64,000 bases of DNA from Halodesulfurarchaeum sp. HSR-GB. GTDB lineage: Archaea; Halobacteriota; Halobacteria; Halobacteriales; Halobacteriaceae. The notes under the pieces were generated by a model, which saw only the letters and a program-made list of their open reading frames with translations, had not been told where the DNA came from and did not search any database. The DNA lies in contig NZ_JAVKGN010000003.1 of assembly GCF_031432215.1 (NCBI RefSeq), positions 1 through 64,000 of the forward strand, given 5' to 3'. A program made the position numbers and the translations under genes. This document shows, piece by piece, positions 30,418-59,795 of this stretch (the stretch's first letter is position 1; every line of letters begins with the position of its first letter).

Positions 30418-30639
30418 TTACTCCTCGTCTTCACGCAGCTCTTCAACTTTCCACTTGAGCCGTCGCAGAATCTGCGTCCGGTTCTGGTGGGCGTTTTCGT
30501 AGGCAACACACTCCTGAAGGGTCTCCATATCGGGGATCGTCGCGATACCGGCCTCGACCAATCGGTAATTCGGTGCTTCGAGACGCTTCTCAGGTGGTTA
30601 TTCGTCGTCATTCCCGTCGCTGATCGTGGTCTGCTCCAT
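30418..30639 (-). pseudogene. Small accessory gene with an internal stop codon
   Basis: From ATG 30639 the frame reads MEQTTISDGNDDE, then TAA (30598-30600). It continues in the same frame as PPEKRLEAPNYRLVEAGIAT, then IPDMETLQECVAYENAHQNR, to a stop at 30418. It is a clear paralogue of the intact 73-aa gene at 34181-34402, so the TAA is a nonsense mutation. No good start codon follows it until a late ATG. Confidence 0.75.
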
Positions 30640-34180: not shown

Positions 34181-34402
34181 TCAGTCCTCTTGAGAGCAGA
34201 GTTCGTTGGCTCGGTGTTCGAGACGTCGAAGGATCTGGACGCGGTTCTGGTGGGCGTTTTCGTAGGCGACGCAGGCTCGCAGCGTCTCCATGTCGTTGAT
34301 CGTCACGATGCCGGCGTTGAGAAGTCCCGTATTTGGTGGTTCGAGACGCTGCTCCGGTGATAGACCATCCGAGTCTATAGATTGCTCTGGCGAGTTACTC
34401 AC
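34181..34402 (-). CDS. Small accessory protein (73 aa)
   Basis: MSNSPEQSIDSDGLSPEQRL is followed by a helical hairpin LNAGIVTINDMETLRACVAY and ENAHQNRVQILRRLEHRANE. It is paralogous to the nonsense-interrupted gene at 30418-30639. Likely an all-helical protein, function unknown. Confidence 0.62.
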   Translation of the reverse strand: MSNSPEQSIDSDGLSPEQRLEPPNTGLLNAGIVTINDMETLRACVAYENAHQNRVQILRRLEHRANELCSQED

Positions 34403-39662: not shown

Positions 39663-40589
39663 TTAGACAGCTAGTTCATCCAGCGCGTCTCGGTGAGTTC
39701 GGACGGTTACCGGTGAGACGTTCGCGACCTCTGCGACCGCTGACTGTGTGAGCAACTGGCCGTGTTCGTGCCCTGCTTTGTACAGGCAGGCGGCGGCGAA
39801 TCCTGACGGGCGGACGCCCGTGGTAACTCCCGTCGATTCGGAATCTTCTGCCAACTTCCTGGCTCGTTGACGGATCTGATCTGGGACGTCGAGTTCCGAC
39901 GCGAGCCGCGGAACGAACGCACTGGGCGTCACGGGCTTGGCTGGGAGGCCGAGTTCCGTATTCAGCGTCTTGTACGCGTTCGTCACGCGCGACTGCTCGA
40001 CGCGCGCCGGGTCGGTGACATCGTCGAGCGTGCGCGAGATCCCGTTACACCGACAGGCTCCGTAGACGCTCGCGGTGGCCATCGCTTCGATCGACCGGCC
40101 CGGCAGGAGGTCTTCGTTCTGGGCGCTCCGGAAGAGCTGGCACGCCTGGTCACGAATCGTCTCGGACAGCTCGAGTGTACTCACGATCCGGCGGACCTCT
40201 CCAAGGCCATGTGCGAGGTTTCGCTCGGCTTTCGACTGAAACCGCCCACGAGTCTGTTCCCGGCGCATCCGGGCGACTTGACGGCGCTTCCGTCCGGAGA
40301 GTGTGTTTCCATTCGCGTCAGTCCCACGGCCGATCTCGGTCGATAGGCCCCGATCGTGCCGCGCCGCCGTGAGCGGCGCACCCGTCCGTTCCCGTTCGTC
40401 CTCGTCGAATGCTCGCCATTCGGGCCCGTGATCGATCTGGTGCTCATTGACGACGAGGCCACACTCCTCGCAGACGGTTTCGACCGCATTGGTGGTGACC
40501 CGACCGTCGCATTCGGGGCACTGGTTCGCGCTGGAGTGAGTCTGTACGTCTTCGTCGAACGTCGTCTCGTAGATCTCTCTGGTTGCCAT
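39663..40589 (-). CDS. tfb: Transcription initiation factor B (TFB), mobile-element copy
   Basis: This 308-aa protein starts at ATG 40589 (MATREIYETTFDEDVQTHSS). It has the zinc ribbon CPECDGRVTTNAVETVCEEC, a B-finger region, and two cyclin repeats (LETIRDQACQLFR-like LSETIRDQACQLFRSAQNED; IRQRARKLAEDSESTGVTTG) ending in an HTH (QSAVAEVANVSPVTVRTHRD). It recruits RNA polymerase to TBP-bound promoters. Extra TFBs on haloarchaeal elements may redirect transcription to element promoters. A truncated sister lies at 59315-59600. Confidence 0.92.
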   Translation of the reverse strand: MATREIYETTFDEDVQTHSSANQCPECDGRVTTNAVETVCEECGLVVNEHQIDHGPEWRAFDEDERERTGAPLTAARHDRGLSTEIGRGTDANGNTLSGRKRRQVARMRREQTRGRFQSKAERNLAHGLGEVRRIVSTLELSETIRDQACQLFRSAQNEDLLPGRSIEAMATASVYGACRCNGISRTLDDVTDPARVEQSRVTNAYKTLNTELGLPAKPVTPSAFVPRLASELDVPDQIRQRARKLAEDSESTGVTTGVRPSGFAAACLYKAGHEHGQLLTQSAVAEVANVSPVTVRTHRDALDELAV

Positions 40590-40631
40590 GATACTCAGAG
40601 GGACATTCCAATGAATCGCGCCTCTCGGAAT

Positions 40632-40660
40632 GCCCCTCACCCATCAGGGGCACATAAATA
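40632..40660 (-). promoter_or_regulatory. Hairpin leader element H14
   Basis: Plus strand GCCCC-TCACCCATCA-GGGGC then ACATAAATAC. It lies 43 bp upstream of the tfb start. Confidence 0.58.
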
Positions 40661-40800: not shown

Positions 40801-41697
40801 CTACTCCCACCACCGACCGCGCTCTGGGAAGTGCACGGTGCTCCACCCGGTCAGGGCCACTGAGACGCGCTCTTGATACCAGTTCCGCGCCGCCCCGTGA
40901 ATCCGCACGCGCTCGCCTTCTTCGATCCAGGGTTGATTCGATTTCTCCCAGACGGTCACCTTCGTTCGTCCGCTCTCGTCCTCGATGAGCCCGACTTGCT
41001 GAATGGCCGATGAATCCGCATCCCACAACTGGGTCACGGCCCCTTCGATGCTCACCTCCTTCCGGTTCACGTCCTCGACCTTCCCTATTGGGATCACCTG
41101 TCCCGGCGCCGTCTGGAGCTCCTCGAACACCCCGACGACCGCACTCGTCATGTCTCTCCCCATGACGACCGCTTCGGCCAGCCGCCGACTGATCGCCGCC
41201 CGCGACCACCCATCCAGCTTCTCGGCCAACCGCATCGACTGCTTGTTCACAGCCGCCAACTGCTCCTGTTTGAGTTCTGCACGTGGGTCCGGCCGATCCG
41301 GGTCTGCCATTGGGTCCACGCTCGCTCTCCGCCTCTGGAACTCCGTCCGACGCTTCGCACTTTGTTTTGCCGCGATATCTCGCGTTCGCTTCTCCCGACC
41401 CTCCTGTGTCCCGAGTTCGGCTTGGGCACTGATGCGCTCCAACTCAGCCTCCCGCGCCTTGATGCGTTCTTCCTGTTCGAGGGTCTTCCCGAACAGGTGA
41501 TCCGGCCCTGCTTCGACCCGCGCGTCCGGATGGTTTGAATCGACTTTCGCCTGCACTTCCATATCGACCGTCGCCCGGAACTCCGGGGTCTCATCGACGA
41601 CCTCGAAGCCATTCTCGTCGACCTCGGCTTCATCGTGTTTCTCGAATGCCTGTTCATCGACCGAAACTACTTCACTGGAGACGTTCTTACTTGACAT
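40801..41697 (-). CDS. OB-fold ssDNA-binding protein (RPA-like)
   Basis: This 298-aa protein starts at ATG 41697 (MSSKNVSSEVVSVDEQAFEK). An N-terminal half with coiled coil (KAREAELERISAQAELGTQE) precedes a C-terminal OB fold, VNRKEVSIEGAVTQLWDADS, GLIEDESGRTKVTVWEKSNQ, EEGERVRIHGAARNWYQERV. This is the RPA/single-strand-binding type found on haloarchaeal plasmids. The function is probably in element replication or conjugation. A long hairpin and the 255-bp repeat lie upstream. Confidence 0.8.
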   Translation of the reverse strand: MSSKNVSSEVVSVDEQAFEKHDEAEVDENGFEVVDETPEFRATVDMEVQAKVDSNHPDARVEAGPDHLFGKTLEQEERIKAREAELERISAQAELGTQEGREKRTRDIAAKQSAKRRTEFQRRRASVDPMADPDRPDPRAELKQEQLAAVNKQSMRLAEKLDGWSRAAISRRLAEAVVMGRDMTSAVVGVFEELQTAPGQVIPIGKVEDVNRKEVSIEGAVTQLWDADSSAIQQVGLIEDESGRTKVTVWEKSNQPWIEEGERVRIHGAARNWYQERVSVALTGWSTVHFPERGRWWE

Positions 41698-41787
41698 GGC
41701 GGAACCTCGAAGGCGCTCACTCGGCGTCTTCTTTCGACACCACGACTCTCCAGCCGTGGCTGTCCACAACGACCAACATCATCCATC

Positions 41788-41841
41788 GCGCGCTCTCGCT
41801 TGCGCCTTCGCGAGCGCCCTAGGGCGCGAGCGAGAGCGCGC
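41788..41841. repeat. Long GC hairpin upstream of the RPA-like gene
   Basis: A 19-bp arm (41788-41806, starting GCGCGCTCTCGCTTGCG) pairs with 41823-41841; the only non-Watson-Crick position is T801:G828, a wobble pair in plus-strand RNA. The 16-nt loop itself contains GCGAGCGCCCTAGGG. It lies 90 bp upstream of the start at 41697. Confidence 0.7.
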
Positions 41842-41910
41842 CAGGAGGCCACCCATCCAGCACCGCGCGCCGACCCGCCCGGAGCGAGCGGCCAGCTTTA
41901 AGCCGTTTCT

Positions 41911-42165
41911 CGCGTCCGGCCCGGACTGCGGGTCCGTGTCCAGGGCGACGGTCGTGAGCACGGCGAGCCGTGGTGTGGCTCGCCGCGCGGAACGGGCCAA
42001 AGCGCTGGAACGCGAAAGCCCGCGAGGGGCGCAACCGAAAACGCGCTTAATGCTGGCGTCGAGACCAGATTTACTTTAGCCCGGAACGGGCGCGGGCGGT
42101 GCGGAGAGCGCCCGCACGCCCGGAATGGTCGGTCGCGAGTGACGCGGAGGGCGGAATGCGGCGAG
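41911..42165. ncRNA. Candidate structured RNA, copy 1 (255 bp)
   Basis: It aligns without length change to 46311-46565 (offset exactly 4400). Several blocks are identical, including 40, 19, 44 and 25 nt stretches. At 41962-41984 the hairpin GGCGAGCC-GTGGTGT-GGCTCGCC occupies the same positions as CGCGCGCC-ACACCGC-GGCGCGCG in copy 2: two base pairs change in a compensated manner and the 7-nt loop differs. GCCCG-GAA-CGGGC (42080-42092) and GTGCGG-AGAGCGC-CCGCAC are conserved stems. It is non-coding; transcription strand unknown, flanking genes are minus. It could be a leader of the RPA gene or an independent RNA. Confidence 0.6.
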
Positions 42166-42347
42166 CGGGACGGGCCGGAGAGAAACACCAAAATAGGAGG
42201 TGTCAGTGCGCCTGCTTACCGAACCTCGATCTTGTGCTGAAATTTCTATAATTTGAGAAAACAGGCCTGCTGCATACAGACCATCTATTTAGTAGAGCGG
42301 TAGCGATGGATTGTCTTGATATCTGAGAGGGCGGCGTGTGGGTTGGC

Positions 42348-42623
42348 TCACATTCCCATATCGACAGCTTCACCGGGGATTGGAAGATCTGGAGGGGCGA
42401 CCCCGAGCAGTTCAGCTGCGTGATCGAGCGCCATGTCGAACCCATAGTACCGCTCCAGTTCATCGCCATCCGGTGTCGTTCGCACTTTCACCATCGCATA
42501 CCCTTCTCGATTCTGAATCACTGCCGCGGTACGTCCTGCATGTCCAAATTCAAGCACCCGCTCTGACTCGGTTTCAAAATACCGAGTTGTAATCCCATTT
42601 TCTTCCAGCGTCACGTTTATCAT
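42348..42623 (-). CDS. Unknown haloarchaeal protein (91 aa), pdxS neighbour
   Basis: MINVTLEENGITTRYFETES, VLEFGHAGRTAAVIQNREGY and LERYYGFDMALDHAAELLGV form a small alpha/beta protein. Divergent from pdxS. I recall similar proteins as haloarchaeal DUFs; no function known. Confidence 0.6.
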   Translation of the reverse strand: MINVTLEENGITTRYFETESERVLEFGHAGRTAAVIQNREGYAMVKVRTTPDGDELERYYGFDMALDHAAELLGVAPPDLPIPGEAVDMGM

Positions 42624-42746
42624 AGCTCTTCGTAGGATGCCAGGATACAGTCACACTTGTTGGTTTCCGTCGAATTGTCATGATCGTCACTACACTTCCA
42701 CCTGTCCATCGAAGCCTTTAGAAACCTGAATGGGGGAATGGTTCTC

Positions 42747-43655
42747 ATGGCTGAAGCGACAGATCTTGAGGAACTTCGTCACGGCACTGATCTCGTCAAG
42801 CAGGGATTTGCCCGGATGCAGAAAGGGGGCGTCATTATGGACGTCGTCAACCGGAAGCAGGCCCGGATCGCCGAGGATGCAGGGGCCGTCGCAGTGATGG
42901 CGCTTGAGGCCGTTCCGGCAGATATCCGCAAGCGTGGCGGTGTTGCCCGGATGGCCGATCCCGGGGAGGTCCGGGAAATAATCGATGAGGTATCGATTCC
43001 AGTCATGGGTAAATCACGGATCGGCCACACGAAAGAGGCAGAGATCTTGGAGACGACAGGCGTCGACATGATCGATGAGAGCGAGGTGCTTACTCCTGCG
43101 GACGACCGCTATCATATCGATAAACGCGAATTTACCGCGCCGTTCGTCTGTGGCGCTCGCGACCTCGGCGAAGCACTCCGGCGGATCGATGAAGGCGCCG
43201 CCATGATTCGTACCAAAGGAGAGGCCGGAACCGGTGACGTGAACCAGGCCGTCCATCACCAGCGCAATATCAAGGGCGCAATCCGGCAGCTTGAAGGGAT
43301 GACTCATGAAGAGCGGGAGTCATGGGCTCGTGAACACGAGGCTCCTGCAGAACTCGTCCACGAAACTGCGGAAATGGGTCGGCTGCCAGTGGTGAACTTC
43401 GCTGCTGGTGGCATAGCCACACCAGCGGACGCGGCGCTGATGATGCACCACGGTTGCGACGGCATCTTCGTCGGTAGCGGCATCTTTGGTGCCGAGAATC
43501 CTCAGGCGATGGGTGAAGCGATAGTTGAGGCGGTCAACAACTGGGACTCCCCCGAGACGCTGGCTGCGATTGCTGAAGGTGCTGGTCAGGGGATGGAAGG
43601 CGAAGCCAACGCAGATATCCCCGAAGATGAGCGCCTTCAGGGGCGCGGTGTGTGA
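42747..43655 (+). CDS. pdxS: Pyridoxal 5'-phosphate synthase, synthase subunit
   Basis: This 302-aa TIM barrel has [20 protein letters not shown], the Schiff-base lysine segment [37 protein letters not shown], the phosphate loop [20 protein letters not shown] and GIFVGSGIF. It makes PLP from ribose 5-phosphate, glyceraldehyde 3-phosphate and ammonia from PdxT. ATG 42747 has a GGGGG 10 bp upstream; ATG 42738 lies too close to it. Followed by pdxT after 25 bp. Confidence 0.96.
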
Positions 43656-43680
43656 ACACGAGTCATCTCGAACTGGAATT

Positions 43681-44280
43681 ATGACCCTGACTGCTGGTGT
43701 CATTGCTCTGCAAGGCGACGTGAGTGAGCATGTCACCGCCATCGAACACGCTGGATCCCGCCACGGAGAGACAGTTGAAGTGCTGGAAGTTCGTGAATCG
43801 GGACAAGTTCCTGAGTGTGATGTTTTGTCGATGCCAGGGGGAGAGTCCACGGCTATTTCCCAGTTCATCCATCGTGAAGGAATCGCTTCAGAAATCGTCG
43901 ACCATGTTAATGCCGGAAAGCCACTTTTGGCGACATGTGCTGGATTGATCCTTGCAGCACAAGACGCCCAAGATAGCCGCGTAGAGACGTTAGACTTGAT
44001 TGAAGTTAGCGTCGATCGGAATGCATTCGGTCGGCAGAAAGATAGCTTTGAAACGAATCTACAAATCAGAGGGTTAGATGAGCCGTTTCCAGCCGTCTTT
44101 ATCCGGGCTCCCTCGATAACAGAAGTGGGAGAGGGGGTTGAGGTGCTTGCTGAGCATGATGGGCGGGTTGTTGCCGTCCGGGAACCTCCTGTTGTTGGCA
44201 CCGCGTTTCATCCTGAACTGACCGGGGCTTCCCAAATACATGATTTGGTGTTTTTCGAGTCGGATTTACCTCCACAATAA
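43681..44280 (+). CDS. pdxT: Pyridoxal 5'-phosphate synthase, glutaminase subunit
   Basis: This 199-aa class I glutaminase has GVIALQGDVSEHVTAIEHAG, SMPGGESTAISQF (oxyanion), KPLLATCAGLILAAQ with the nucleophile Cys, and the His-Glu dyad VVGTAFHPEL. It supplies ammonia to PdxS. It is shorter in codon bias and slightly more AT-rich than pdxS. Downstream is the IS1341-type element on the opposite strand. Confidence 0.95.
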   Translation: MTLTAGVIALQGDVSEHVTAIEHAGSRHGETVEVLEVRESGQVPECDVLSMPGGESTAISQFIHREGIASEIVDHVNAGKPLLATCAGLILAAQDAQDSRVETLDLIEVSVDRNAFGRQKDSFETNLQIRGLDEPFPAVFIRAPSITEVGEGVEVLAEHDGRVVAVREPPVVGTAFHPELTGASQIHDLVFFESDLPPQ

Positions 44281-44399
44281 CCAGGTCGCAGATATCGTTA
44301 TTTTCAACATTACGGAGTTTGCTGCATTCGCGCCCTGTATACAGCACGCTCCTGAGAATGTGTCTGAATTTAGTAATACTATTCAGAGCTGTAATAGGT

Positions 44400-44517
44400 G
44401 TGTTCGGCGTATCAGTTCAAAAAGCAAGCGACCAGCGGGTCGACATCCACTCCACAGATAGGAGCGTCCGCTCGCTAGCGTTGAGGACGCTACGGCGGCA
44501 CCTCGCGGGTCTGTGCG
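44400..44517 (-). ncRNA. Candidate TnpB guide RNA (omega RNA) and IS right end
   Basis: Reading on the minus strand just past the TnpB stop, AGCGTCC...GGACGCT (44464-44492) forms a hairpin, followed by TGTGGAGTGGATGTCGAC and the element end. TnpB guide RNAs are encoded at exactly this location. The exact end of the transposon is not determined. Confidence 0.45.
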
Positions 44518-45759
44518 CTATTCGTTGGGCGTCACTGTGGCTCCCTCGACGGGAAACCACTGGTGATCGTCCCACTGGAACCGCACGGGCCGTGCCGTCG
44601 GCCTGACTGTTGTGTTCGTTGCTCGTTCGAGCAATGTTCTCGAAGCAACGAGGTCGGCGTGGCCGTCGAAACCACACGGACAGGTGAGCGTCTCTCGATG
44701 CCGGCGTGTTCGGTCCCGTTCGCCACATTCTGGACAGGTTTGGGACGTCCACGCCTCCGAGAGTGCTCCTACGTCGATTCCGTACTCTTCACAGACTGAT
44801 TCGAGTCGATCGATACACTGCCGGTGAGCCCAGAAGGTCTGTGCTTTGAGGTTCGCTTCGACTGACCAGTACTCACCGAGCACCCCGGTGAGATCGCCGT
44901 GGTAGAGCGTTGAGACACCAGCCGCCTCTAAACGCTCGACTAAGTCCCGAAGGAGTGCGTTCACTGCATGGTCACGTCGCCGCGAGCGTTTGCGATAGAG
45001 CCGTTTGATTCGTTGACTCGTGTGTCGTCCATCAGGGAGTTTCGCTTGAGCGCTGGCGATAGCGTTAGTCGTCTCTCGAAACTGCTCGAACGGGGTTTGT
45101 CCACTGTAGAGATACTGCTCCTCGGTCGTTGTCGTACAGGCAACGAGCACGTTTGCACCGAGATCGAGTGCAGCGGCCTCGGAGCCATCTGATCTGCTCT
45201 CTTCGACGTCGTCGATGGTTACGGATTGATGCACACGGTACGTCTCTTCGACCGAGTCGTACGAGATTTCGAGTCGACCACTGTCTCCACGCCACTTCGG
45301 ATTGCCCCGAACCGGTAACCGAAGCCGTTCGTACATTCCGAATCCGTACTCGTCTTTGAGATCCATGCCGATGCGGATTTCCAGTCGGGACCGCCTGTTC
45401 CACTGAATGGTGTACGAATCGTTTCGAATGTACGTTCGGAGTTCTCGGCCATCGTCTTGATTCCCCCAGTAGCCGGGGGGACTCGGATCGTACTCAGGAT
45501 CGTTGAGAAGTTCGAAGAAGGATCGCCATGCAGTATCGTTCACGCGAGCAATCTGTTGGGTCGTCGCTCCGCTTAGCACGTCGACGTACTCGTCGTAGTA
45601 GCCATCGCACTCCCAGACACTTTCGCCGTCGAAGAACTGCTGGCGGCGGTCGTAGGTGAGTTTATTCCAGAGACTTGCCGACGCGTCCAGCACTCGCGTA
45701 AGGATTTCTTCTGTTGTTTCAGAGTCGGGAGCAATATCGAATGTATTCGTTCGTTTCAT
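44518..45759 (-). CDS. tnpB: TnpB RNA-guided endonuclease, IS1341-type (no tnpA seen)
   Basis: This 413-aa protein has an N-terminal helical region and the RuvC motifs: first Asp in [20 protein letters not shown] (about 194), a middle region with [20 protein letters not shown], and the last Asp in [17 protein letters not shown] zinc ribbon [21 protein letters not shown] sits between. All expected catalytic residues except a clearly assignable RuvC-II Glu can be seen. No partner transposase TnpA is near, as in IS1341-type elements. Confidence 0.9.
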
Positions 45760-45898
45760 GGATCTGAACGATATTACATCCAGGGCACGCCTTCGCCGAT
45801 TCCAGTTGACTGCACGATTCTCGGAAAACTACTGTCGGAGCTGGTCTGGCAACGTCGTCTCGTTTTCAATTCCTCTCTGGTGAAGGCACGATCACGTC

Positions 45899-45930
45899 GC
45901 GCCTCCGCCCGTTCCGGGCGCGAAAAACCA
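45899..45930 (-). promoter_or_regulatory. Hairpin leader element H15 (orphan)
   Basis: Plus strand GCGCCTCCGCCCGTTCCGGG CGCGAAAAACC. The gene it would precede on the minus strand (about 45875 and below) is missing; only a short relic remains before the TnpB element, which suggests the insertion replaced it. Confidence 0.6.
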
Positions 45931-45957
45931 ACACAAGCAAGTCGAGTTGGGGTCACA

Positions 45958-46134
45958 TCATTGGTCGCTGTGACCCCACATCCGCGGGACATAGCCGAGA
46001 TGCTCGATGTCGTCAGCGTAGTCACGAAGGAGCCCCATGAGGACGACTTCGGGAACGCCGGATTCGGCTTGGTCGACCAGCCAGTCTTCCAGTTCGTCTT
46101 CGGCCTGCTCAATCCCGTTAAGATCAACGGACAT
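45958..46134 (-). CDS. Small acidic accessory protein (58 aa)
   Basis: ATG 46134 opens MSVDLNGIEQAEDELEDWLV, followed by GVPEVVLMGLLRDYADDIEH and a short tail ending at TGA 45958-45960. Helical, acidic. Function unknown. A hairpin element and candidate RNA copy 2 lie upstream. Confidence 0.6.
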   Translation of the reverse strand: MSVDLNGIEQAEDELEDWLVDQAESGVPEVVLMGLLRDYADDIEHLGYVPRMWGHSDQ

Positions 46135-46228
46135 CCGGCCAGTCCCCCGCTGATTGACGATACACCTGTCGCCGGTGGCGTTGTTCCATCAGAAATCACC
46201 TGTATTACCATGCAGGCACGATCGCTTC

Positions 46229-46258
46229 GAGCCTGCACCCATTGCAGGCGCAAAAAGA
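46229..46258 (-). promoter_or_regulatory. Hairpin leader element H16
   Basis: Plus strand GCCTGC-ACCCATT-GCAGGC then GCAAAAAGAAC. It lies 95 bp upstream of the start at 46134. Confidence 0.6.
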
Positions 46259-46310
46259 ACCACCGGCGACGTAGTCAGTGCAGAGGTGTGCCGATACCGA
46301 TATGCCCGCT

Positions 46311-46565
46311 CGTGTCCGGCCCGGACTGTGGGTTCGTGTCCAGAGCGACTGTCGCCGAGAACGCGCGCCACACCGCGGCGCGCGACAGCGCAGGCGGGAC
46401 AAAGCGCTGGAACGCGAAAGCCCGCGAGGGGCGCAACCGACGGGGATACCCGCTGGCGTCGAGGGCACATTCATTTTAGCCCGGAACGGGCGCTCGCGGT
46501 GCGGAGAGCGCCCGCACGCCCGGAATGGTCGGTCGCGAGCGACGCGGAGGGCGGAATGCGGCGAG
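46311..46565. ncRNA. Candidate structured RNA, copy 2 (255 bp)
   Basis: Colinear with 41911-42165. The stem 46362-46369/46377-46384 (CGCGCGCC/GGCGCGCG) shows compensated changes against copy 1. CTGTCG (46349-46354) and CGACAG (46383-46388) could add an outer helix, and CGGG-GATA-CCCG (46441-46452) is a hairpin specific to this copy. It lies between the recQ stop and the small gene at 46134, upstream of that gene. Open reading frames through both copies are not conserved as protein. Confidence 0.6.
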
Positions 46566-46651
46566 TGGGGCGTGCCGGGAACGACACAACGGCCTCATCA
46601 CGGAGATGAATCGTCACCGAACAGAGATGGCTCGGACAGCAACGGCCGGTG

Positions 46652-48733
46652 TTACCACCGGGTCCGTTCTGCCAACGCAAAGGGATAAACTGGACCGCTC
46701 CCGGCATCGCGAAGCATCAGTGCCGCCTCTGTGAAACTCCACCGTGAGCCGACAGTGTCGTCGATCAGCAGGACAGGCTCGGCCCGAACCTCATCAGTCG
46801 TCGCGAACGCCCCCTCGACGTTCCAGCGTTTCTGGTAGGAGTTCGCCAGTTCGTGCTGGGGCTGCATCGGTTCGACCTGTTCGACGGCGTGGACGTAATC
46901 GATTCCCAGTCCGGTCGCGATTCGTCTGGCGAGATCCTGAACCTTCTCCTCGCCCGTCGGGGAGGGAACAGCAGTGACCCAGGTCGGACTTGATGACGGT
47001 GTCCACTCCTGTTTGATGTACTCGACTGCGGCGTCAACCAGCTTCTGGCTGTACCCATTGTCTTGGTCAAACTGTTGGCTGACCAGCGCGCCATACCCTG
47101 GGTCACCGTAAACTGCCAATGCACGCCCCGGTTCAGGTTTCCGCTCTTCAGCGATTTTCGAGCGGCCGTCTTCCTTGGGCATGTAGTATCGGGGCGATAT
47201 CTCGGCTACCGATTCAGCCCGGTAGTGCTCTACGGCCGCCGAAACGAGGCTTTCGTCCTGCACCTCCGTCGGGAGGACCGGCCCCCTACAGGAGGCACAG
47301 CGGCCACAATCCTCCTCGAGGGAGCCATCTAATTCGTCGTCGATGAACCGGGTCAGACAGTCGTCGGTTTGGACGAACTGCTTGATACGCTCGAGCTCCC
47401 GTCGACGTTGCTGGGTGACTGACGCGATGCGGTCGTGGTCGTAGTTCCAGTCGGCGGCTGTCCGCTCAAATCCGTCCTCAACCCGAATGACGGCGTTGTC
47501 GACCCGAACCATGTCTAGACACTGGGAGGCCGCCTTCCAGGAGATGTTCGCCCGTTTGAGGAGCTGGTACTTGTGCAATGGCACCTCGCTGTCCGCCAGC
47601 GTCGAAAGTACGATCTCGAACTCCTCGGGGTCGGGAAACGCTTCCTCGATGAAGTACTCCGCAATCTGGTTGTCCTCGTCGCCGGAGAGAAGGACAGCGA
47701 AGGCGTCGTCTAGGTCACGCCCCGCCCGTCCAATCTCCTGGTAGTACCGGATAAGATTCGGCGGACGTTGGAAGTGAATAACCCAGCCCAGATCTGGTTT
47801 GTTGAACCCCATCCCGAGGGCATTCGTGGCTGCCAGGCCGTCCACTTCGTTCGCCATGAGTTGGGCTTCCAGTTCGCGGCGACGCTCGTCGTCCATTCCG
47901 CCATGGTATGGCTCGAACTCGAGGCCCTGTTGTCGCATCCACTCGGCGACCGTCTCAACCTCGTCGGTCGTCAGGCAGTACACGATGCCCGAGGATGGCA
48001 GGTCGGGGACGTTCTCAGCGAGCCAGGCGAGCCGCCGGGCCCGTGACCCCAGCTTGTTTGTCTGGAGACGCAGTGACTTCCGGACGAGATCACCACGGAT
48101 TACCTGGAGATCGGGAACTTGATTGGTAACATCATCGACGACTCGATCGTTGGCGGTTGCAGTCGTCGCCGCCACCGGGATGTGGTCCGGTAGCTGCTGG
48201 AGGATGCGTCTAATTCGGCGGTAATCCGGGCGGAAATCGTGCCCCCAATCGGAGATACAGTGCGCTTCGTCCACGACAAGAAGCCCGAACTCCTCGTCCA
48301 TCGCGAGTAACACATCCTCCTGGAACTCGGGATTCGCCAGTCGCTCCGGTGAGATCAGCAGCAGATCACAGCGCCCCTCGCGAACGGCGTCTTTTGCCTC
48401 GGACCACTCCTCTTTGTTCTTGGAGTTGATGGTCCACGCGTTCAGGTCGAGCTGCGTTTCGGCGTCCTGGATCTGGTTACGCATCAGCGCCAGTAGCGGA
48501 CTGATGATGAGCGTTGGGCCGTGGCCCTGTTCACGGAGTAGTTTAGTTGCGATGAAGTACACCGTGCTCTTGCCCCACCCAGTCCGCTGAACGAGGAAGA
48601 CTCGCTCCTGTCGGTTGACCAGCCGGTCAATAGCCTCCCACTGATCTGTGCGGAATTCCGCCCCCGGTCCGATACTACGTTCCAAGAGCTCCTGCGCCCG
48701 GCGCTTGGTACTCTCGCTCGAATCCCCGTTCAC
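46652..48733 (-). CDS. recQ: RecQ-type helicase with C-terminal phosphoribosyltransferase domain
   Basis: The helicase core is residues about 25-480: FRTDQWEAIDRLVNRQERVF, the unusual Walker A VQRTGWGKSTVYFIATK, DEAH box LLVVDEAHCISDWGHDFRPD, and motif VI RYYQEIGRAGRDL; a zinc-binding CGRCASCRG follows. The last 150 residues hold a phosphoribosyltransferase-like domain with VLLIDDTVGSRWSFTEAALM (PRPP loop, D-D-T-x-x-S/T). I start it at GTG 48733 (VNGDSSEST); upstream in-frame residues look unrelated. It follows the HTH and PIN genes, overlapping the latter. Confidence 0.85.
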   Translation of the reverse strand: MNGDSSESTKRRAQELLERSIGPGAEFRTDQWEAIDRLVNRQERVFLVQRTGWGKSTVYFIATKLLREQGHGPTLIISPLLALMRNQIQDAETQLDLNAWTINSKNKEEWSEAKDAVREGRCDLLLISPERLANPEFQEDVLLAMDEEFGLLVVDEAHCISDWGHDFRPDYRRIRRILQQLPDHIPVAATTATANDRVVDDVTNQVPDLQVIRGDLVRKSLRLQTNKLGSRARRLAWLAENVPDLPSSGIVYCLTTDEVETVAEWMRQQGLEFEPYHGGMDDERRRELEAQLMANEVDGLAATNALGMGFNKPDLGWVIHFQRPPNLIRYYQEIGRAGRDLDDAFAVLLSGDEDNQIAEYFIEEAFPDPEEFEIVLSTLADSEVPLHKYQLLKRANISWKAASQCLDMVRVDNAVIRVEDGFERTAADWNYDHDRIASVTQQRRRELERIKQFVQTDDCLTRFIDDELDGSLEEDCGRCASCRGPVLPTEVQDESLVSAAVEHYRAESVAEISPRYYMPKEDGRSKIAEERKPEPGRALAVYGDPGYGALVSQQFDQDNGYSQKLVDAAVEYIKQEWTPSSSPTWVTAVPSPTGEEKVQDLARRIATGLGIDYVHAVEQVEPMQPQHELANSYQKRWNVEGAFATTDEVRAEPVLLIDDTVGSRWSFTEAALMLRDAGSGPVYPFALAERTRW

Positions 48734-49046
48734 GCTGAACGTGATTGGTTGATCCGTGAAAAGAGTTCTCGATGTACCGCTGCACACCGTCCATCGCCCG
48801 CGAGACGATGGAATCAGAAAACTTGGGCGGCGACGCGACTGTTGTCCACTCCTCGTCGATCGCGGCGTCGATGGGCGGTGCCTCGACGTCAGGGTCGTCG
48901 ACGGCCAACTCGTCGCACATCCGTTCAGGGAGGACGAAGGTGATGTCGTTCCGGCGAGCGAATCGCCGAACAGCCTGGTAACGGCTGTTCGACGGCTGGC
49001 CCATTGCGACGAACAGGCCGGTGTCGGCGATGTGGAGCGCGCTCAC
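48675..49046 (-). pseudogene. PIN-domain protein, C-terminally truncated
   Basis: It begins SALHIADTGLFVAMGQPSNS (first catalytic Asp), with VLPERMCDEL as the second acidic region, and PPKFSDSIVSRAMDGVQRYI. In PIN proteins the third and fourth acidic residues follow, but here the frame runs into FHGSTNHVQRERGFEREYQA, which overlaps the recQ 5' end. The start is GTG 49046, overlapping the HTH stop (GTGA). I judge the nuclease half to be lost at the recQ junction near 48770. Confidence 0.65.
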
Positions 49047-58401: not shown

Positions 58402-59313
58402 TCAAAGCCTACCAGGTTCTGACTGGGGATCGTGGTAATCGTCGACAAGCTCGAGTGCCTGTTCGATAGTTCGCTCGTCGTACAGCGTATCCTCTGAAAC
58501 AAGACTCACCCACTCGGCTCGATTTCGATCCGATTGTCGAACCAGCCGTTCTATTTGCTCGCCGTCACCGCCAGTCCAATACGCGAGCTGGCTGCAGAAT
58601 GCGACGTCAGCCTCCGTTTGACTTGCATACCCTGCACTACTGCCAGTCCATAACCGCCGGAAGACGTCACTAGCGGGCCCGTACTGTGCCCGTTCGATGA
58701 CTGCGGTATCACTCAAATCAACGTCGACACTGGGCTCTGATGGCAACCCACCGAATTCCTGAACATCGACGACAGACAGCGTCGCCGCGGCTTCGGCTGG
58801 GTCGGCAGCTCCTTTCCACGCCTTGTAGACACCCCGGAGTTCCGTCGTTCGCTCGGTAACTGTCGCCGGCGTCGACGACAGCCGATCACCCGTAATCGGT
58901 ATGTAGAACTCCGCATCACAGATGTCGATCGGCCCGGAGGTCCAACTCGGTGGCTGCCCCGCAACGATAATCCGAATGGTCTGACCGTCGTATGCAGCTT
59001 CAGTATAGGAATCAAGCGTCTCAATCACCGTCCGGGCCCAGCCATCGAGGTCGCCGGTCTCAGGATCACGACAGGCGGAGAGTTCGACAGCAGTAAATGG
59101 GTCATCGTGTGTGGGATAGAAGGCGAGTCCGTCGACATCGAGTTCGGACGCCGTCGCCGTGGCGTATGCATCCTCAAAACCACTCCACGTATCTTCGTCA
59201 TCGAAGGTTGCGCGCTCGCCGGTCGCCGGATCGATCGGTGTGAGTGAAATCCCGTCTGCCGAGTCGTCAGTATCAGCTGCCCGCCAACAGACCCACTGCT
59301 CCCGATCGGGGAT
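58402..59313 (-). pseudogene. PrimPol-type replication protein fragment
   Basis: Reading from 59313: IPDREQWVCWRAADTDDSAD, DDEDTWSGFEDAYATATASE, LDVDGLAFYPTHDDPFTAVE and later FCSQLAYWTGGDGEQIERLV RQSDRNRAEWVSLV. These are the head and linker of phage/plasmid primase-polymerases (REQWVCWR..., W-x-x-F-x-x-A). No start codon belongs to it and the helicase half after YDERTIEQALELV is absent. It is fused out of frame to a TFB fragment. Confidence 0.75.
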
Positions 59314-59314
59314 T

Positions 59315-59600
59315 CGTTCCCCTTTGCGTCGGTGCCGCTACCGATTTCCGTCGACAAGCCTCCATCGTGGCGGGCCGCAGTGAGTGGGGCGCACGTTCGC
59401 TCGCTCTCCTTGTCGTCGTATGCCCGCCACCCCGGCCCGTGATTGATGCGTTGTTCGTCGATGACCAGGTCACAGTCCTCACATACCGTTTCCACAGCGT
59501 TAGTCGTGACCCGGCCGTCGCACTCGGGACACTGGTTCGCACTCGACTCCATTTTGACGTCTTCGTCGAAGCCAGTTTCGTAGATATCTCTGGTTGCCAT
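59315..59600 (-). pseudogene. tfb: TFB N-terminal fragment
   Basis: From ATG 59600: MATRDIYETGFDEDVKMESS, zinc ribbon CPECDGRVTTNAVETVCEDC, then HDGGLSTEIGSGTDAKGNE, matching the first 95 residues of the TFB at 39663-40589 and the same leader architecture. After that the frame runs into the PrimPol fragment in another register. Probably a deletion joint; the product would be a non-functional ribbon peptide. Confidence 0.85.
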
Positions 59601-59636
59601 CGTTCTCACCGTGTTCAGGGAACTCGCCAGCACTGC

Positions 59637-59668
59637 GACCCCCTCACCCTTTGAGGGGACAATAGACG
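59637..59668 (-). promoter_or_regulatory. Hairpin leader element H19
   Basis: Plus strand CCCCT-CACCCTTTG-AGGGG then ACAATAGAC. It lies 37 bp upstream of the truncated TFB start, the same position as H14 before the intact TFB. Confidence 0.58.
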
Positions 59669-59795
59669 ACACCGACTCCTTACCAAGAAAATCGATCTTG
59701 AGGGCTTTTCCTCCGAAATGGGGAGAGCTGTATAAGATCTGTCTGACCTTTCGAAGGGGGTCCAGATAGCTATCGAGGTTAAATATGCCGTCTAA

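Follow-up and report, generated by a model that had tools for sequence, protein, structure and literature searches.

A 64,000-nucleotide stretch of Halodesulfurarchaeum sp. HSR-GB (the window of this study, part of contig C3 of 104.9 kb in a 2.25 Mb genome) contains two related blocks with a GC content of 72–73%, compared with 58% window-wide; this raises the question as to what these repeats are and what preserves them. An earlier note had described them as a duplicated 255-bp structured RNA with compensatory base changes. Comparison with homologues supports that reading, namely selection on base pairing in a haloarchaeal RNA family outside Rfam; the observation holds, yet understates the element, which is two to three times longer, gene-anchored, modular and widespread. 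The repeats are probably truncated copies of modular structured RNAs, about 540–700 nt long, that form a family common among haloarchaea and adjoin the gene of a single-strand DNA-binding protein (SSB) or of a TFIIB-type protein.

The repeat pair and the complete element

The two blocks start 4400 bp apart, at 41911 and 46311, as first reported. Their alignment, described as gap-free, is not: an ungapped overlay agrees at only 183 of 255 positions, the best non-self repeat of the window (84% identity over 274 bp, E ~1e-68) contains six gap openings, and the spacing is maintained by compensating indels. The 255-bp boundaries are also too narrow, as conservation in copy A begins where the divergent SSB gene has its start codon (41697) and stops abruptly at about 42175–42189. 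The genes and copies concerned are as follows:

39663–40640, minus strand: TFIIB paralogue that immediately follows the SSB gene; in other loci a TFIIB-type gene replaces the SSB gene beside the element
40801–41697, minus strand: SSB/RPA-type protein of the Rfa5/Rfa6 family, 298 aa, with one C-terminal OB fold; divergent partner of copy A
~41698–42189, plus strand: copy A, without the 3′ domain M4 and with a degenerate first hairpin (H1)
46299–46578, plus strand: copy B, a central fragment with M2 and M3; helix P lacks its 5′ strand, and the 5′ domain and M4 are missing

Both copies had been placed about 200 bp upstream of a minus-strand accessory gene. This is apt for copy A, where the gene is that of the SSB, and not meaningful for copy B, whose nearest large genes are tnpB, with its start ~550 bp away on the left, and, on the right, a RecQ-like gene with its 3′ end ~77 bp away; a hypothetical ORF of ~58 codons, annotated in a relative, lies ~175 bp away. 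Both copies recur, with the 4.4 kb spacing kept, on plasmid pHSR2-01 of Halanaeroarchaeum sulfurireducens, where the counterpart of copy B has an internal tandem duplication. H1 is damaged in copy A and intact in a close relative (L034); the SSB reading frame of the window is intact. With its 3′ domain and first hairpin gone, copy A is incomplete, as is the fragment that makes up copy B; each is therefore probably a relic or a reduced form and unlikely to function as a full copy.

The DNA between the copies holds pdxS and pdxT (vitamin B6 synthesis; 42738–44280, plus strand), an arrangement shared with pHSR2-01, and a tnpB-type gene (44518–45759, minus strand; 413 aa, with a Cas12f1-like TNB domain), relatives of which (about 71–93% identity) are found between two element copies in several other plasmids. 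Two similar hairpin-like sequences of the form GGCACGATC...GGCGC(G)AAAAA (45885–45926 and 46210–46253) flank a small ORF ~330 bp apart, and the RecQ-like helicase (46652–48787, minus strand) carries a phosphoribosyltransferase-like C-terminal stretch with a weak GntX match. Elsewhere in the window, a 140-bp direct repeat of 78% identity occupies 30457–30596 and 34220–34359.

Measured from the start codon, the element spans 539–715 nt in 77 of the 78 copies measured. Its modules follow one another in the order H1 (at the start codon), H2, H3, the palindrome M0, M1, helix P around M2, M3, a linker and M4. In the window, where copy A serves as the reference, these parts and the candidate promoter preceding them are located as follows:

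41650–41667, plus strand: CTGTTCATCGACCGAAAC in SSB codons 11–16, constrained at the DNA level; candidate core promoter
41698–41708, plus strand: H1, a hairpin abutting the SSB start codon
41709–41731, plus strand: H2, hairpin GAAGGCGC...GGCGTCTTC, which holds a G–U pair on the plus strand
41740–41759, plus strand: H3, hairpin CCACG...CGTGG (CCGCGATG...CATCGCGG in most homologues)
41788–41839, plus strand: M0, a long GC-rich hairpin; near-perfect inverted repeat, conserved in SSB-linked loci
41858–41889, plus strand: M1, block CAGCACCGCGCGCC...GAGCGAGC, conserved in SSB-linked loci
41890–42058, plus strand: long helix P (GGCCAGC...GCTGGC) around the optional M2; its inner pairs covary, with at most three pair types
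41962–41984, plus strand: hairpin of helix 6, the stem seen first, with double changes in 5 of 10 pairs
42007–42036, plus strand: near-invariant M2 block GGAACGCGAAAGCCCGCGAGGGGCGCAACC, made of invariant columns in alignment A3
42059–42176, plus strand: M3 core, comprising TTTAGCCCGGAA, a variable apical hairpin (42087–42114), GCCCGGAATGGTCGG and a hairpin (42131–42143)
42177–42189, plus strand: GGAGAGAAACACC, the last recognisable stretch of copy A, beyond which M4 is absent

Homologues continue past the point where copy A ends into the 3′ domain M4, which has the terminus GGCCGAGGGCTTTC. The architecture is variable in a regular manner: M2 is one of several alternative modules that the long helix P can enclose, and hairpins are gained, lost or swapped at fixed points, an example being a GUCGC/GCGAC hairpin tip in L234. 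M4 likewise varies by the insertion or removal of hairpins and is cut down to its closing stem in one copy. M3 is the most widely shared module (57 copies). Solitary M3 or M3 + M4 copies occur in six loci (L036, L041, L045, L046, L051 and L056), in the same orientation as the SSB-linked copy and 3–13 kb from it; the solitary and SSB-linked M3 then form direct repeats around variable cargo, which could mark recombination at the element.

Base pairing and strand

The stem noted at relative positions 52–74 is real (41962–41984 in copy A, 46363–46383 in copy B) and corresponds to helix 6 of the family structure. The paired changes described in it extend to half of its ten pairs when 30 sequences covering the region are compared (alignment A3), and the covariation check proposed at the outset succeeds across many homologues. 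A consensus fold of A3 calculated with RNAalifold contains 76 pairs, 14 of them with compensatory changes; in these 30 sequences, 98.4% of the paired cells are filled by pairs, compared with 33–44% in slid controls. The covariation score is 0.178 in A3 against 0.088 in shuffles, and none of 500 shuffles reaches the observed value in four of five measures, the fifth, further pair types, not rising above shuffles. As the shuffles ignore relatedness and the structure is tested on the alignment from which it derives, it is the slid control and the independent helices that carry weight. Among the latter, H1 exists elsewhere in 47 distinct versions, nearly all foldable as hairpins, with native arms pairing at −6.3 kcal/mol and swapped arms at −3.2 kcal/mol (arm-swap p = 2e-4); H3, helix P and the apical hairpin of M3 behave alike. 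A blind stem scan found little, because variable hairpins misalign, and is superseded by these anchored arm-swap tests; sequence-only mutual information over the full alignment was swamped by differences between M2 subtypes and is retained for helix P alone. As judged from the aligned homologues, the element is under strong selection to base-pair.

The proposal that the blocks do not encode protein is borne out: no reading frame is conserved between the copies, indels and hairpin insertions are not multiples of three, and no annotated gene lies under most matches.

Folding energies and wobble pairs suggest which strand would be transcribed. In A3, the mean per-sequence fold is −157.7 on the plus strand versus −140.2 on the minus strand, and the consensus fold of the region −230.9 versus −205.7. 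In the plus reading, the basal stem of M4 shows 13 G–U against one A–C; the listed pairs of helix P and M4 share this plus-favouring tendency, and one helix-6 pair runs through the series CG/UG/UA. A crude strand count over multibranched regions (A–C 230 versus G–U 185) was discarded as unreliable because conserved mismatches entered the tally. The plus strand, which leads away from the SSB gene, is thus held to be the likely RNA strand with good though not full confidence, since for subtypes S1 and S3 the minus strand gives a slightly better consensus fold of the whole element.

A candidate start for such an RNA lies inside the SSB gene. Within codons 11–16, the DNA identity of GTT, TCG, GAT, GAA and CAG is 0.97–1.00 and that of GTC (codon 13) 0.81; identity in later codons is 0.65–0.73. 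Elements adjoining TFIIB genes retain a comparable block, CCGAAA/CCGAAG, on their upstream side. The CGAAAC within CTGTTCATCGACCGAAAC is presumably a BRE, judging from general knowledge of archaeal promoters. CTGTTCATCGACCGAAAC is therefore proposed at the motif level as a candidate core promoter of the plus-strand RNA, one without a canonical TATA box.

Neighbour genes and distribution

Full-length copies begin right at the first codon of a divergently oriented gene, which is usually a plasmid-type SSB/RPA gene and sometimes a TFIIB paralogue. Most copies in the fetched loci lie about 200–380 bp from an SSB/OB gene that points away from them. In an independent set of copies fetched by an exact core motif, 71 are informative: the neighbour is an SSB gene in 56 and a TFIIB gene in six (62 of 71 together), and the remaining nine are without the 5′ start motif. 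Presence of the element also follows that of the SSB gene among 98 genomes (39 with both, seven with the RNA only, eight with the SSB only, 44 with neither), with an odds ratio of 31 and p = 3e-12, figures that stem from related genomes. The divergent partner of full-length copies is an SSB gene of the Rfa5/6 type or a gene of the TFIIB type.

The OB fold of the SSB is indicated by Pfam (below cut-off) and NCBIfam matches and further supported by a PDB profile match (2kbn) and the best AlphaFold/Foldseek match (2ken). With about 300 aa, one OB fold, a plasmid location and homology to proteins of pNRC100 and pNRC200, the protein is of the Rfa5/Rfa6 type; it is assigned to this family because these two plasmid proteins share 81% identity, the figure given for Rfa5 and Rfa6 of the Halobacterium salinarum minichromosomes in PMC5924565. 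The same source lists the Haloferax volcanii homologues HVO_A0019, A0374 and A0409, assigns three SSB homologues to pHV4, and reports that deletions of Rfa5/Rfa6 genes cause mitomycin C sensitivity, with about 15-fold lower survival. As for the TFIIB paralogue of the window, a segment of it (40305–40589) is repeated with 76% identity at 59316–59600; the short ORF holding this second repeat (59025–59672) starts like this paralogue (39663–40640), then diverges, and is probably a broken copy.

The family is widespread within one order. Matches occur in 235 of 394 genomes across the order (~60%), in 215 of 347 good genomes and in 74 of 95 genera; homologues are found in 51 of 98 relatives, and between 149 and 160 plasmid records are matched. 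Of the fetched loci, 58 of 60 reside on contigs of up to about 1.1 Mb, and a genome can hold up to eight matches, with several on a plasmid. Among 295 genomes drawn from the whole phylum, matches are confined to Halobacteriales, and in a collection of bacterial and archaeal genomes every named match among the matches listed is haloarchaeal. Phage records yield no match, and viral contigs (IMG/VR) none to a 20-base exact core. No Rfam 15 family reaches its gathering threshold in the window, and a permissive Rfam search with the window and a full-length homologue (L042) returns chance matches only. The open-access literature searched covers the SSB genes but yielded no description of the element, whose novelty, judged from that literature, is provisional. 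Provisionally, then, the element belongs to the large, ornate kind of structured RNA and falls outside every named family.

Possible roles of the element

The plus strand would be transcribed from the promoter overlapping SSB codons 11–16, where the BRE-like CGAAA lies ~33 nt upstream of the first G in H1, a distance consistent with a start at H1; the RNA would thus begin near H1, at the start codon, and end near GGGCTTTC. It may work with the divergent gene, for instance as a ribonucleoprotein with the SSB, as their position and co-occurrence suggest. Alternatively, the element may control the SSB: no TATA-like box is evident just upstream of the SSB start, so that the SSB message probably crosses the DNA of the element on the opposite strand, and the two transcripts would then be complementary. 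As the partner may instead be of the TFIIB type, coupling of expression is favoured at least as much as a ribonucleoprotein. Plasmid countertranscript RNAs are likewise structured and adjoin the start of a gene on a plasmid, to whose leader they may be complementary; in comparison, the present element is archaeal, much larger and known from sequence alone, and its neighbour is an SSB gene instead of a replication gene. Of the possible functions, acting with the SSB or controlling it is the favoured guess, though a speculative one. A more specific version, in which a hitherto undescribed class of large RNA, confined to Halobacteriales and borne on plasmids by most members of the order, forms a ribonucleoprotein with a plasmid SSB for DNA crosslink repair or plasmid maintenance, is put forward tentatively and is more doubtful than probable.

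The same layout could belong to a cis-regulatory RNA on the minus strand, with the SSB (or TFIIB) mRNA carrying a long structured leader at its 5′ end. Full-length copies do reach exactly as far as the neighbouring start codon, with H1 abutting the ATG, no TATA-like box stands at leaderless-transcript distance from the SSB, and the S1 and S3 folds are marginally better on this strand. However, the wobble pairs in helix P and M4 favour the plus strand, the DNA to the right of the element has no AT-rich promoter signal, the conserved CGAAAC motif is on the SSB side, and two unrelated protein families use the element; a 5′ leader is thus an unlikely explanation. The question also arises as to whether DNA itself is the functional form, its hairpins, in single-stranded or cruciform state, acting for example as SSB-bound sites in plasmid replication, transfer or recombination. 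A role as replication origin is set aside because of the multiple copies per replicon, up to eight matches per genome and several per plasmid being a poor fit to a single origin. The neighbouring single-strand DNA-binding protein, the mostly plasmid-borne location, the strong palindromes and the ability of M3 copies to flank cargo as direct repeats agree with a DNA-level role, and hairpins in single-stranded DNA would give similar covariation. An internal loop of M4 resembling tandem GA and the asymmetry of wobble pairs between the strands nevertheless suit RNA better, and the apical hairpin insertions recall large RNAs; RNA rather than single-stranded DNA would thus be the form under selection, and a DNA-level element is very unlikely.

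Debris of mobile elements, either a MITE or the guide RNA of a nearby TnpB, is brought to mind by the tnpB gene between both copies here and in several other loci, and by the truncated or solitary state of some copies. Full-length copies, however, adjoin an SSB or TFIIB gene and not tnpB, the side and distance relative to tnpB vary, and a matching tnpB is absent from the fetched flank of most full-length copies. TnpB guide RNAs overlap or follow the 3′ end of tnpB, while copy B lies ~550 bp 5′ of its start, and the compensatory changes indicate selection on structure; this origin is highly improbable.

The structured RNA family preferred here has its closest parallels in OLE, GOLLD and ROOL (PMC12286853), which also extend over several hundred nucleotides and are large, with many helices and modular peripheral hairpins. 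These RNAs are described from bacteria, whereas the present element is haloarchaeal, lies beside an SSB or TFIIB gene and matches no Rfam model. The Rfa5/Rfa6 SSB provides the protein neighbour; the passages of PMC5924565 on its genes do not mention an adjacent structured element.

Present in about 60% of the sampled genomes, in species that include the lab-tractable Halobacterium salinarum and Haloferax mediterranei, with intact copies on pNRC100 (about 146.7–147.1 kb) and pHME132 (about 120.2–121.0 kb) respectively, the element would rank among the largest and most widespread RNA families of Archaea without a known function. The mitomycin C sensitivity reported in PMC5924565 for deletions of the neighbouring gene makes the function of the element directly testable, and existing deletions of the SSB gene or of its 5′ end may have disturbed the RNA as well.
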